The notes under the pieces: model-generated
Seen by the model: the letters and a program-made list of their open reading frames with translations, nothing else
Told to the model about the DNA's origin: nothing
Databases searched by the model: none
Position numbers and translations under genes: made by a program
Shown: in pieces, positions 1 through 60,249 of the stretch
How the letters are laid out: each line of letters starts with the position of its first letter
How positions within the stretch are numbered: the stretch's first letter is position 1
Assembly (NCBI RefSeq): GCF_003634695.1
Contig: NZ_RBWV01000009.1
Span: 248,001-312,000 of the forward strand
DNA length: 64,000 nucleotides
Direction: 5' to 3'
DNA from: Motilibacter peucedani
GTDB taxonomy: Bacteria > Actinomycetota > Actinomycetes > Motilibacterales > Motilibacteraceae

Positions 1-269
1 AGCAGCTCGGTCAGCCACCACCCGTACAGCGCGTGCAGGCCGGCGGCACCCTCCCAGACGTCGAGCTTCAGCGTGACCCGCAGCTCGGTGATGATGTCCT
101 GGGCGTGCGTGAGCTGGGCGTGCGCGACGTCGAGGTCGCCGCTGCGCTGCGCGTTCTCGCCGCGGGTGAGGTCGAGCACGAGCCGGTCGTAGAGCATGGT
201 GAGCAGCCGGGCCGGGCTCGCGTGGAGGATGCCGTCGTCGGCGTAGCGGCGGGACGCGTTCGCGTACAT
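1..269 (-). CDS. fliS: Flagellar export chaperone FliS, partial (runs off left edge)
   Basis: The reverse strand from ATG at 269 reads MYANASRRYADDGILHASP, then ARLLTMLYDRLVLDL, the classic FliS N-terminus (helix bundle with the LxxxLYDxxL motif). FliS binds the disordered C-terminus of newly made flagellin in the cytoplasm and prevents premature polymerisation before export. About 89 codons are visible and the 3' end lies outside the window. It follows fliD by 47 bases, giving the order flaG-fliD-fliS. A weak AAGGA-type ribosome site precedes the ATG. Identification is firm; only the C-terminus is unknown. Confidence 0.9.
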   Translation of the reverse strand, partial: MYANASRRYADDGILHASPARLLTMLYDRLVLDLTRGENAQRSGDLDVAHAQLTHAQDIITELRVTLKLDVWEGAAGLHALYGWWLTEL

Positions 270-9632: not shown

Positions 9633-10180
9633 GAGCCGAAGCCTCGCATCGCCGCGGCCATGGCCGCGACCGGGTCGAAGTCGTCGTCGTGGAGGGCGAG
9701 CTGGTCGACGACCAGGCCGTTGCCGTAGGAGAGCAGGTAGCGGGCCTTCATCTCGACGTCGTCGGTGACGCCGGCCGCTCGGAGCATGTCGGCGATGGCG
9801 CTCGCCCAGAGCCGGTTCGTACGCGCCGCGACCTCGCGGAGCGACGGGTCGACGGCCGCTTCGGTGAACAGCGCGGCGAGCGCTCCGGCGGCCACCCGGC
9901 CGGGGCCGAGCGCCGCTCCCAGGTTGGCCCCGAGGACCTGGGCGACGTCGGACGCGTTGCGCACGGTCACCGTCCCCAGGTCGCCGATGACCGCGGCCAT
10001 CCCCTCCCCCAGCCGCTCGAGGGTGCCGACGAGCAGCGCGGTCCTCGACCGGAAGTAGTTCGACGTGGTGCCGTTCGGGAGGCCGCCGGCCCGGTCGACG
10101 TTGCCGTGCGTCAGCGCGCGTACGCCGCCTGCCGCCGTGACGCCGATGGCTGCCTCCAGCACCTGGTCGCGCCGGCTCAC
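9629..10180 (-). CDS. TetR-family transcriptional regulator
   Basis: 183 residues. The N-terminal TetR helix-turn-helix includes VRALTHGNVDRAGGLPNGTT and SNYFRSRTALLVG. The C-terminal ligand domain is family-variable. It starts with GTG at 10180 overlapping the kinase stop (GTGA) and ends overlapping the arr start, so three genes are translationally coupled. It probably controls this operon or a drug/lipid-responsive set; no operator is evident inside the operon. The ligand is unknown. Confidence 0.85.
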   Translation of the reverse strand: MSRRDQVLEAAIGVTAAGGVRALTHGNVDRAGGLPNGTTSNYFRSRTALLVGTLERLGEGMAAVIGDLGTVTVRNASDVAQVLGANLGAALGPGRVAAGALAALFTEAAVDPSLREVAARTNRLWASAIADMLRAAGVTDDVEMKARYLLSYGNGLVVDQLALHDDDFDPVAAMAAAMRGFGS

Positions 10181-54228: not shown

Positions 54229-54291
54229 CCCTATTGACGCGCCCGCTTTGGGCTGGTGAGGTCAGTGGCTCGTCAGGACGAGGGGAGTGCG

Positions 54292-55773
54292 GTGGAGCTC
54301 GGAGGCGGACTGCTGGGCGCCGTCGTGCGGATCGGCGCAGCCCGCACCACCGCGGAGGCGCTCGACGCCCTGCTGCGCGCGGCGCTCCTGCTGGCGCCCG
54401 GGGCGCAGGTGGCCGCGGCGCTCCACGGCCCGGACGGTGCGCTGCGCGAGGCCGCTGCGGCTGACCTGTCGACGGACGCGACTGCCGTGCTGGCACGACT
54501 GCGGGCGCACCCTGACGCGGTGGTGCTGCCGGTGCCGGTGGAGGGTCGAGCACCAGGCGTGCTGGTGGTGGAGGGGCTGCCCGCCGCCGAGATCGAGCCA
54601 CTGCGGCTGCTGGCGGTCGCGGCGGGAGCGGCGATCACCACCGCCCACGCGCTCGAGCGGGCCGAGCTGCAGCGTCGCTGGTCGGAGGGGAGCGCCTCGC
54701 TGGTGGCCGCGATGGCGCGCTCGGCCGGTCGCGGCGACGACGAGCTGCACCAGGTAGCCCGGCGGGTCCGCGAGCTGGCCGGTGCCGATGCGGCGCTCCT
54801 GCTGCTGCCGAGCGGACCGTCCGAGGTGGTCGTCGAGGTGGCCGCCGTCGCACCGGGGCTGGACCCGGCGGCCCTCGCCGGCGCGCGGCTGCCGCGCGCC
54901 GCGACGCTGGCGGGTGCGGTGCTCGAGGAGGGCGAGGCGCTGGTCGTCGACGCGGCGCCGGAGGCCGCAGCCGTACGCGGCGACCTGACGGCACCGCCGG
55001 GCTGGCCGGGCGGCGGGCCGACGCTGCTCGTGCCGCTGGGAGGCGCCGACGACGTACGCGGGGTGCTGGCGCTCGTGCGCTCGGCGCCCGCCTTCACCGA
55101 GCTCGAGCTCTCGCTGGCGAAAGGGTTCGCGGGCCTGGCGGCGCTGGCGCTGCAGCGCTCGCGTGCGCAGGCCGACCGGGGCGCGCACGCCGTGCTCGAG
55201 GACCGCGACCGGATCGCGCGCGACCTGCACGACTTGGTGATCCAGCGGCTGTTCGCGACAGGCTTGCAGCTGCAGGGCGTCGCCCGGCGCGCCGACGGAC
55301 CGCTGCGCGAGCGGGTCGAGGGTGCGGTCGACGACCTCGACCAGACGATCCGCGACATCCGCACGACGATCTTCCAGCTGCACCGGCGGCCCGACAGCAC
55401 CGACCTGCGCGGGCAGCTGCACGACGTGGCCGACGAGGCGGCGCGTCCGCTGGGGTTCCCGGTGCTGCTCGAGCTGCGCGGACCGATCTCCGAGGCGGTG
55501 CCCGACGAGCTGGCGCCGCACCTGGTGGCGGTGCTGCGCGAGTCGCTCTCCAACGTGGCCAAGCACGCGCAGGCGAGCGCCGTGACGGTGACGGTCACCG
55601 CCGACCGCGACATCACCCTCACCGTCGAGGACGACGGCCGCGGCTTCGTCGCCGACCGTGCCGGCAGCGGCATGCGCAACATGCGCCGTCGCGCCGAGAT
55701 GCACGGCGGCCGCCTCGACGTCGCCGCCCGCCCCGGCGGCGGCACGCGCCTCCAGTGGCACGTCCCCGCCTAG
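54292..55773 (+). CDS. GAF-domain sensor histidine kinase (DevS-like)
   Basis: 493 residues: two GAF-like regions (AGDAALLLLP-type segments near 170), then HisKA_3 with the His box EDRDRIARDLHDLVIQRLFA and an HATPase (SLSNVAKHAQASAVTVTVTA, VEDDGRGFVADRAGSGMRNM). Soluble. GTG 54292 is used because GAGGGGAG lies six bases upstream; a GTG at 54256 is possible. The convergent response regulator at 55887 is the likely partner. DevS/DosS-type kinases sense redox or gas through GAF heme; no heme-binding histidine was verified. Confidence 0.87.
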   Translation: MELGGGLLGAVVRIGAARTTAEALDALLRAALLLAPGAQVAAALHGPDGALREAAAADLSTDATAVLARLRAHPDAVVLPVPVEGRAPGVLVVEGLPAAEIEPLRLLAVAAGAAITTAHALERAELQRRWSEGSASLVAAMARSAGRGDDELHQVARRVRELAGADAALLLLPSGPSEVVVEVAAVAPGLDPAALAGARLPRAATLAGAVLEEGEALVVDAAPEAAAVRGDLTAPPGWPGGGPTLLVPLGGADDVRGVLALVRSAPAFTELELSLAKGFAGLAALALQRSRAQADRGAHAVLEDRDRIARDLHDLVIQRLFATGLQLQGVARRADGPLRERVEGAVDDLDQTIRDIRTTIFQLHRRPDSTDLRGQLHDVADEAARPLGFPVLLELRGPISEAVPDELAPHLVAVLRESLSNVAKHAQASAVTVTVTADRDITLTVEDDGRGFVADRAGSGMRNMRRRAEMHGGRLDVAARPGGGTRLQWHVPA

Positions 55774-55788
55774 TCGCGGCGGCCCGAC

Positions 55789-55873
55789 GTTGATCGCCCT
55801 AGCCGATCAAAGTCGTGCCGGGCCCATGCAATTTGGTCGGCCCGGCACGAGGTTGATCGCCCTAGCCGATCAA
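55789..55873. repeat. Composite repeat between convergent two-component genes
   Basis: Two identical 22-base units at 55789-55810 and 55852-55873, each itself an inverted repeat (TTGATCG, a 7-base loop, CGATCAA), flank a hairpin with 12-base arms (TCGTGCCGGGCC) and a 14-base loop at 55813-55850. The gene pair converges here, so it may be a bidirectional terminator, but the exact double palindrome is unusual. Confidence 0.7.
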
Positions 55874-55886
55874 CATCTCGGCGGGG

Positions 55887-56555
55887 TCAGGCGGGGGTGG
55901 GGAGGGAGTGGCGGGTGGCGAAGATGGCGGCCTGGGTGCGGCTCTCGAGGCCGAGCTTGCCGAGCAGGTTGGAGACGTGGTTCTTGACCGTCTTCTCGGC
56001 CACCCCGAGCGCCTCGGCGATCTGCCGGTTGGTCTCGCCCTGCGCGATGTGACCGAGGATGCGCCGCTCCTGGTCGGTCAGGCTGGCGATCCGGTCGGGA
56101 CGCCCGCCGCCGCGCAGCCGGTCGAGCACCCGCGCGGTGACCGCCGGGTCGAGCAGCGACTGGCCGGCGGCGACGCGGTGCACGGCCTCGATGAGGTCGT
56201 CGCCGCGCATCTGCTTGAGCAGGTAGCCCGACGCGCCCGCGGTGATGGCGGCGAACAGCGCCTCGTCGTCGTCGTAGGACGTGAGGATGAGCACGCGGAC
56301 GAACGGGTCGGCCGAGCGTACGTCGCGCGCCACCTCCACGCCGCTGCCGTCGGGCAGTCGCCCGTCGAGGATCGCCACGTCGGGCCGCGCGAGCAGGATG
56401 CCGTCGCGCGCCTCGCGCGCGGTGCCGGCCTCGCCGACGACCTCGATGGCGGGGTCGGACTCGAGCAGGTCGCGCAGGCCGCGGCGCACGATCTCGTGGT
56501 CGTCGAGGAGGAAGACGCGTACGCGGCGCACGGGTGCGTCGGACGGCTGGCTCAT
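55887..56555 (-). CDS. NarL/DevR-family response regulator
   Basis: 222 residues: a receiver (RVRVFLLDDHEIVRRGLRDL, Asp in VAILDGRLPDGSGVEVA, Lys in YLLKQMRGDD) and a LuxR HTH (LTDQERRILGHIAQGETNRQ, EKTVKNHVSNLLGKLGL). ATG 56555 starts the receiver; the in-frame codons upstream do not. It is transcribed convergently with the GAF kinase. Its operator sites are unknown. Confidence 0.88.
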   Translation of the reverse strand: MSQPSDAPVRRVRVFLLDDHEIVRRGLRDLLESDPAIEVVGEAGTAREARDGILLARPDVAILDGRLPDGSGVEVARDVRSADPFVRVLILTSYDDDEALFAAITAGASGYLLKQMRGDDLIEAVHRVAAGQSLLDPAVTARVLDRLRGGGRPDRIASLTDQERRILGHIAQGETNRQIAEALGVAEKTVKNHVSNLLGKLGLESRTQAAIFATRHSLPTPA

Positions 56556-56703
56556 GTGCGTGGCTCCTCGGTGCGGACCGGCAGCGCCGCTGGAGCGGCG
56601 CCGACGGTCCCATCGGCAGGCAGGGCGCCGACGTGAGCGAGGGGATGCAGGGAACGGGGTCGCCGGTGCCGGGACGGAGCCCGGCACCGGCACTCCGTGA
56701 CGG

Positions 56704-56792
56704 CGGAGGCGGCGGGATTTGAACCCGCGAGAGGGTTTAAGCCCTCAACCCGCTTAGCAGGCGGGCGCCATAGGCCACTAGGCGACGCCTCC
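56704..56792 (-). tRNA. tRNA-Ser (GCU)
   Basis: The reverse strand folds as a class II tRNA: acceptor GGAGGCG/CGCCTCC, D arm, anticodon stem CCCGC/GCGGG with loop CTGCTAA (anticodon GCT), a long variable arm (GAGGG/CCCTC) and T arm GCGGG TTCAAAT CCCGC. Discriminator G; CCA is not encoded. It serves AGC/AGU codons. Confidence 0.93.
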
Positions 56793-59742: not shown

Positions 59743-60249
59743 TCAGCCCACCAGGGCGGGAGCGGCGAGCATGGCGACGTCGACCGAGCCTCCCTTGGTG
59801 CTCTGCCGGCCCACCTCGACGAAGCCGAGACGGGTGTGGAAGCGCATGGAACCGGGGTTCGGCGGGCGGGTGTTGACCTCGCAGCAGACCTCGGCCAGCC
59901 CGAGCGCGCGGGCGTCGTCGAAGATCGCGGCGTAGAGCACGCGACCCAGCCCACGGCCGCGGGAGCCCTCGCCGACCGCGATGCGGTCGACGTAGAGGAA
60001 GTCCGAGGAGCGTGCCTCGAACCACCGGTAGTTCTCGCTCGCGTAGTCCGCGCCGGGCAGCAGGCAGAGCGCGAAACCGGCCACCGCGTCGGTGGCGTCG
60101 TCGACGACCGCGAGCGCCAGCCGGGTCTGCCCCACCAGCCGCTCGAGCGCCGGCGCGTCCAGCTCGCTGACGGCGGGCACGGAGGCGTTGTTGATGACGA
60201 GCACGTCATCGAGGTCAGCCGGCACGACGGGCCGCACGACGTAGCTCAC
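59743..60249 (-). CDS. GNAT-family N-acetyltransferase
   Basis: 168 residues with the acetyl-CoA loop RIAVGEGSRGRGLGRVLYAA and the C-terminal EVNTRPPNPGSMRFHTRLGF, typical of GNAT enzymes. The substrate is unknown. It starts at ATG 60249. Confidence 0.87.
   Translation of the reverse strand: MSYVVRPVVPADLDDVLVINNASVPAVSELDAPALERLVGQTRLALAVVDDATDAVAGFALCLLPGADYASENYRWFEARSSDFLYVDRIAVGEGSRGRGLGRVLYAAIFDDARALGLAEVCCEVNTRPPNPGSMRFHTRLGFVEVGRQSTKGGSVDVAMLAAPALVG

Follow-up and report, generated by a model that had tools for sequence, protein, structure and literature searches.

A REPIN-like repeat of Motilibacter peucedani belongs to a genome-specific family with an AbiEi-Vsr-like nuclease as its probable partner

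Introduction

REP sequences are among the oldest bacterial repeats known. To our knowledge, the RAYT transposase is the sole recognised partner of REPs, and we know of no enzyme that has been assigned to the CGTC REPs or to actinobacterial palindromes. According to the accessible portion of PMC8049555, RAYTs are single-copy, vertically inherited genes that still replicate REPINs. The available sections of PMC3733652 place CGTC-tagged REPs at most 20 bp from both 3' ends of convergent ORFs. A further relevant family is that of the AbiEi proteins, which bind inverted repeats and, in the cases of AbiEi and Rv2827c, thereby autoregulate from their promoters, as the available excerpt of PMC7319586 has it.

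Herein we describe an element found in a 64-kb stretch of Motilibacter peucedani DNA (the window). Our preferred explanation, to which we give a probability of roughly 0.68, is that the element is a copy of a REPIN-like repeat from a genome-specific family and that an AbiEi-Vsr nuclease is probably the partner of that family; this figure takes in the catalytic steps, where our main doubt lies. A literature search, which lay mostly outside the subscription journals, returned no description of an association between hairpin repeats and AbiEi-Vsr proteins, and none is given in the portions of PMC12915292 and PMC2587704 that were available.

Results

Two palindromes around a GC hairpin

The original prediction described two identical 22-base units, each with a TTGATCG/CGATCAA palindrome, on either side of a 12-bp hairpin and between convergent regulatory genes, and each part of this description was borne out (Table 1). 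The window contains exactly two copies of the unit, GTTGATCGCCCTAGCCGATCAA, whose palindromic part measures 21 nt (TTGATCG-7-CGATCAA). A third copy was not found in the 64 kb with three mismatches allowed, and 100 shuffles of the window gave 0 matches to the unit; chance, as represented by these shuffles, does not give such a pair. The central hairpin pairs TCGTGCCGGGCC with GGCCCGGCACGA over 12 bp. Together, the units and the hairpin make up a single imperfect inverted repeat with arms of 39 nt that are 79% complementary, and RNA folding gave z values of -4.1 for the plus strand and -6.7 for the minus strand, a long single hairpin being possible on both. The whole element spans 92 nt with GAYG...CRTC ends and is slightly longer than the span first proposed. 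U-tract terminators, consisting of a GC hairpin followed by a T run, numbered 0 at the element on either strand, and no Rfam family matched at its gathering score, the only matches being sub-threshold ones to microRNA models. The minus strand also carries a tRNA-Ser (gct) gene immediately past the response regulator, at window positions 56702-56792.

Table 1. Positions of the element, its parts and its neighbouring genes in the window
Feature	Position	Strand	Remarks
Whole element, type I (palindrome, GC hairpin, palindrome)	55786..55877	.	12 genome copies aligned; flanks beyond the ends unconserved
Left 22-nt unit	55789..55810	.	Palindrome TTGATCG-CCCTAGC-CGATCAA at 55790-55810
Central GC hairpin, left arm	55813..55824	+	
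Hairpin loop, 14 nt	55825..55838	+	CATGCAATTTGGTC; family consensus CATGCAAGTTGCTC
Central GC hairpin, right arm	55839..55850	+	
Right 22-nt unit	55852..55873	.	Identical to left unit
Convergent GAF / HisKA_3 / HATPase_c histidine kinase	54256..55773 (putative start)	+	Stop codon 12 nt before element
Convergent LuxR-type response regulator (Response_reg + GerE)	55887..56555 (upstream limit set by the stretch submitted to Pfam)	-	Stop codon 9 nt after element

A dispersed family in the genome

The feature is not a single copy. The pattern TTGATCG-(3..12)-CGATCAA has 15 exact sites in the 4.19-Mb genome, and three pairs of TTGATCG..CGATCAA sites are spaced by exactly 63 nt, as they are in the window. 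The alignment of twelve genome elements covers 92 nt, starting at GAYG and ending at CRTC, beyond which the sequences do not align. A covariance model built from these 12 elements identified 18 places in the genome (E ≤ 1.3e-6), a number that may be a lower bound because only 150 of the 9,382 first-look candidates were scored with the model. The family comes in two forms, namely type I, which is the palindrome-hairpin-palindrome arrangement of the window, and type II, in which a palindrome and hairpin are followed by GAGGTTSGTGGGCC or a sequence close to it. The mean pairwise identity of the eight two-ended type I copies is 81%. Base-pair covariation within the family was not above that of shuffles. 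The shared sequence therefore suggests copying and not selection on RNA structure, and for the same reason we did not favour a function through RNA structure alone. By our reading, 8 of 12 element sites in the genome are clearly convergent with nearby stops, as compared to 10 of 45 neighbouring gene pairs in the window. The eight type I copies showed no target-site duplication (mean of 3.00, versus 3.11 in cross pairs).

Exact-pattern scans of named genomes, a set that possibly did not include M. peucedani itself, and of viral contigs found nothing. Neither G002 nor G003 has the element at the kinase/regulator homologs that were examined. At the homologous convergent junction of G003 (L068) there is another hairpin, together with a tandem repeat of the GCATGATCGGC type. 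Elsewhere in the M. peucedani genome, a tandem array with a 178-nt period (L038:1322-1855, C13:319711-320158) alternates the element class of the window with a second class and ends about 55 nt before the tmRNA gene (L038:1910-2287). A second element class, class B, is found at L018:1596-1685, beside C12:130977, and has the same three-part layout with another sequence: TTGATCACGTA palindromes, a GGGCACCAGCCG stem, and again a 14-nt loop with GCAAC. A search for a partner gene of the class B elements yielded none.

A nuclease gene with the element at both ends

One gene of the genome, C17:49172-50215 (∼1 kb), is bracketed by two inverted type II elements, which together with the gene form a unit at C17:49076-50248. 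The two arms are identical to each other at 81 of 94 positions, and the window element is identical to them at 63 of 82 and 68 of 81 positions. With respect to an autonomous transposon carrying the ends of the element, the ∼1-kb gene has such ends but encodes no recognised transposase. Its product matches AbiEi-type domains and, weakly, DUF559 and REase_MTES_1575. The generic DUF559 profile scores the protein at 17.7 bits, below the cut-off, and is a poor guide to the family; homologs were collected by protein search instead.

A structure model of a 316-residue relative (pLDDT 94) was compared with known folds using Foldseek and VIA-align 2. Among the matches listed, residues 1-196 correspond to the AbiEi antitoxin structure 6y8q (Z 10.5), in line with matches to PADLOC AbiEi models, and residues ∼200-312 to the homing endonuclease I-Bth0305I (3r3p, Z 11.8) and to Vsr (1cw0, Z 9.9). 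Asp236, Glu247, Lys253, Glu271, and Arg274 (D236, E247, K253, E271, R274) are invariant in 23 sequences. The modelled C-terminal domain thus combines a predicted Vsr/PD-(D/E)XK fold with conserved acidic and basic residues, and the C17 product appears to be an AbiEi-like DNA-binding part joined to a Vsr-like, or homing-endonuclease-like, nuclease domain. Beside six units, whose neighbours were read by eye, no toxin-like AbiEii gene was seen.

Bracketed nuclease genes recur across Actinobacteria

Of the 393 class genomes searched, 163 hold a homolog of the nuclease gene. Flanking repeats were scored by comparing the sequence upstream of each gene with the inverted downstream sequence, and controls came from sliding windows of identical geometry over the DNA in question. 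Among 40 regions selected from the homolog list of the class genomes, 31 loci scored above 99% of 856 slid controls and 28 above the highest control, the count of 31 including long, low-identity alignments of partly coding sequence at L132, L133, L137, L141, L145, L149, L155, and L157. Among these long alignments, the covariance model independently confirms L137 and L145 only. A named set of 80 loci, reduced to 74 by leaving out six near contig ends, gave 44 loci above 99% of 1,839 slid controls and 23 above the highest control; the two sets overlap by at least two loci (L186 and L188). The 44 positive loci include the genera Jiangella, Rhodococcus, Nocardia, Prescottella, Kribbella, Skermania, Nakamurella, Pseudonocardia, Blastococcus, and Microlunatus. 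A significant flanking repeat is lacking in 9 of the 40 and 30 of the 74 homologs, among them the second homolog of the M. peucedani genome (L118, score of 21). The nuclease gene with inverted arms nevertheless recurs across Actinobacteria.

Each genome has its own version of the repeat

The covariance model of the M. peucedani elements matches 7 of the 393 class genomes (E ≤ 1e-4), namely M. peucedani itself and six of genus g41, whose elements have the same architecture over ∼93 nt with another sequence. All seven matching genomes carry the nuclease gene, as compared to 163 of 393 overall. When the model was run over 314 kb around 40 nuclease genes, 19 matches were obtained, 17 of which lie at the unit ends of five loci (M. 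peucedani and four g41 genomes), the other two being one further copy beside a unit end. When dispersed elements were compared with 15 units, the best fit was the unit of the same genome for 16 of 21 elements; the exceptions, best fitted by a foreign unit, were three elements of G065 and two of G201.

The arms of four further genomes were searched for in 400-kb samples. Matches within the own genome numbered 15 in G123, probably of the Jiangella genus, one each in G302 and G103, and 0 in G304, whereas all 12 cross comparisons between the arms of one genome and the sample of another gave 0. G123 also has elements of both types, I and II, and of its copies 5 lie in convergent gaps, 10 in same-strand gaps, and 0 in divergent gaps, against a background of 51, 130, and 46 of 227. 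Dispersed copies thus share sequence with the arms of the nuclease gene in their own genome.

Short TGATCATCAAC...GTTGATGATCA-like hairpins were also noticed in genomes of the genus of G123, at L161 (G112), at L166 (G234), and in G133 near 9950 of an 80-kb stretch. Two of them are on the PAC2/mshC side without a unit and one is elsewhere, and they are possibly the dispersed family of another unit.

Resident genes and changing repeats

Among the pairs listed, the closest homologs (≥75% nucleotide identity) keep the same neighbours, which gives no sign of recent movement of the gene. The nuclease gene diverges faster than its flanks, at 70.7% identity for L187/L199 versus 90-92% for the flanking sequence. 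This fast divergence at a fixed site, observed for L187/L199 and L192/L203, is as in an arms race or relaxed selection. At one chromosomal site the gene may stand in opposite orientations (L130 and L133 versus several others; L113 versus L094, L104, and L116), which suggests in-place inversion, as expected from recombination between inverted arms. In the genus of G061, 6 of 12 genomes have a unit at the junction between PAC2-like and mshC-like genes (named by eye); no cleanly empty counterpart of the nuclease unit was found there, and in some genomes a GNAT-like gene (by eye) occupies the site. Plasmids contained no relative of the nuclease at 1e-20.

Dispersed copies were compared over 80-kb stretches around the PAC2-like gene in five genomes of the same genus. 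At the site of the G123 copy at position 59847 of its stretch, the convergent junction is short and without a copy in G061, G173, and G153, and holds other sequence in G133. At a second G123 site, G133 has a different hairpin of its own, and a third site is complicated by other insertions, so that presence and absence between congeners is clear at one of the three sites examined. Gene units stay at fixed sites while the sequence of the repeat differs between genomes. By analogy, this arrangement may be read as that of domesticated RAYTs, which stay in place while REPINs spread.

Taken together, these results favour the mobile-element-like repetitive unit that had been offered as one possibility for this sequence: the copies are dispersed with unrelated flanks and genome-specific sequence, one orthologous junction differs by presence and absence, and a gene is bracketed by inverted copies. 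The nuclease partner did not figure in the original prediction.

Discussion

The association between repeat and nuclease is observed directly, and what the nuclease would do with the repeat, that is, recognise and copy it, is our inference. In the mechanism we envisage, the AbiEi part would recognise the palindromic ends of the element, and the Vsr-like part would nick DNA either at the element or at the target. A single-stranded hairpin copy could then be inserted during repair, presumably for the most part between genes or just downstream of them, where an insertion would be tolerated or least harmful. Once inserted, the copy may in addition provide both transcripts with a 3'-end hairpin that works in either direction.

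Several observations weigh against our reading: the homologs that have no significant flanking repeat, the five elements best fitted by a foreign unit, the scarcity of dispersed copies in G302, G103, and G304, the lack of target-site duplication and of covariation above shuffles, the kinase/regulator homologs of G002 and G003 that are free of the element, the lack of recent movement of the gene, and a presence/absence case that is clear at a single site. Part of the evidence can also be read in other ways. The elements could be two-way terminators or 3'-end-stabilising hairpins that are selected at gene ends and homogenised by gene conversion, with the nuclease gene merely carrying them. The excess of clearly convergent sites (8 of 12, versus 10 of 45 gene pairs in the window), the strong hairpins on both strands, and the 0 of 15 G123 copies between divergent genes are what this account would lead one to expect, and the position likewise agrees with the novel terminator class that the original prediction allowed for. 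That suggestion fares less well on the remaining points, since there is no U-tract terminator-like site, and the paired positions do not covary above shuffles, the arms mismatching systematically. Furthermore, a terminator has no need of the 81% of sequence that the copies share, loops included, and the account does not fit a nuclease gene that is bracketed by the same repeat in a version particular to each genome. We therefore regard terminators or stabilising hairpins kept at gene ends as an unlikely full explanation, although the copies may have a terminator-like or regulatory role alongside their dispersal.

The long terminal inverted symmetry, small size, and dispersal of the elements also recall a MITE of the usual kind, mobilised by a conventional transposase, for which the nuclease gene would be a passenger or a frequent insertion neighbour. 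A passenger would not be expected to come from one gene family in many genera with different repeat sequences, and with no target-site duplication, and no transposase of the family searched (Y1), we judge a MITE to be very unlikely. Similarly improbable, to our minds, is a role of the arms as operators for autoregulation by the AbiEi part, with the dispersed copies acting as extra regulatory or decoy sites and no mobility involved. Autoregulation through inverted repeats in promoters has been described for AbiEi and Rv2827c (PMC7319586, in the excerpt available), and wherever arms were found one of them is upstream of the gene; the second arm, however, is downstream, the dispersed copies are near 3' ends and not promoters, sequences of 60-92 nt are shared whole, beyond the needs of an operator, and one copy is present or absent between congeners.

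With the REPIN-like reading thus preferred, a broader proposal follows on which we consider the odds to be even: that this is a second, independently evolved REP-type system, in which domesticated AbiEi-Vsr nucleases of actinobacteria each maintain and spread a private hairpin family without a Y1 transposase. If true, it would constitute a new class of repeat-spreading enzyme and would account for many of the extragenic palindromes seen in high-GC Gram-positive bacteria. The recurring link between hairpin repeats and AbiEi-Vsr genes provides a candidate enzyme, with which the spread of such repeats and the retention of the gene by its hosts can be tested directly. A role is suggested as well for proteins that annotation describes only as 'AbiEi antitoxin' or DUF559 and whose relatives are present in 163 of the 393 class genomes searched.

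Of the described systems, REPIN/RAYT is the one with the most in common. In the accessible portions of Bertels and Rainey 2011 (PMC3116915) and of PMC8049555, REPINs are short extragenic palindromes in inverted doublets that form one long hairpin, their families are genome-specific, a chromosomal partner gene adjoins its own repeat, and this gene is resident and vertically inherited while the repeats spread. The element described here is likewise a dispersed extragenic palindrome (in the genome, and 15 times in 400 kb of G123) and an inverted doublet, with 39-nt arms and a long hairpin as its MFE structure. The partner differs, being a Y1 tyrosine transposase there and an AbiEi-Vsr-like protein here, as do the GTAG-footed hairpin of REPINs and the outer palindromes TTGATCG or TGATCACGT of our elements, which moreover have three hairpins in the order palindrome-hairpin-palindrome. 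A RAYT system as such was ruled out, since Y1_Tnp (PF01797) was found in 0 of 11 genomes by a search that was positive in 6 of 14 control genomes, and the foot of the hairpin has GAYG/CRTC ends rather than a GTAG-type tag.

The CGTC-tagged REPs (Di Nocera 2013, PMC3733652, in the sections available) have in common with our element a CRTC/GAYG end tetranucleotide and the lack of a dedicated Y1 transposase. Their stems of 8-9 bp and loops of 4-5 nt compare with 7 bp, a 7-nt centre, and CRTC ends here, and a partner gene is proposed only in the present case; 'Actinobacteria' occurs 0 times in the available text of PMC3733652. Our element thus resembles them in its ends, position, and lack of a Y1 partner, and differs in stem and loop. 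On the protein side, the N-terminal 196 residues are modelled as like those of the AbiE type IV toxin-antitoxin (AbiEi / Rv2827c; 6y8q, Z 10.5, and PADLOC), from which the unit protein differs by its fusion to a nuclease domain and by the lack of an AbiEii gene beside the six units viewed. The predicted C-terminal fold is like that of Vsr and I-Bth0305I (Z 9.9 and 11.8, respectively), with the difference that here it is fused to an AbiEi part and encoded by a gene that the repeats bracket.
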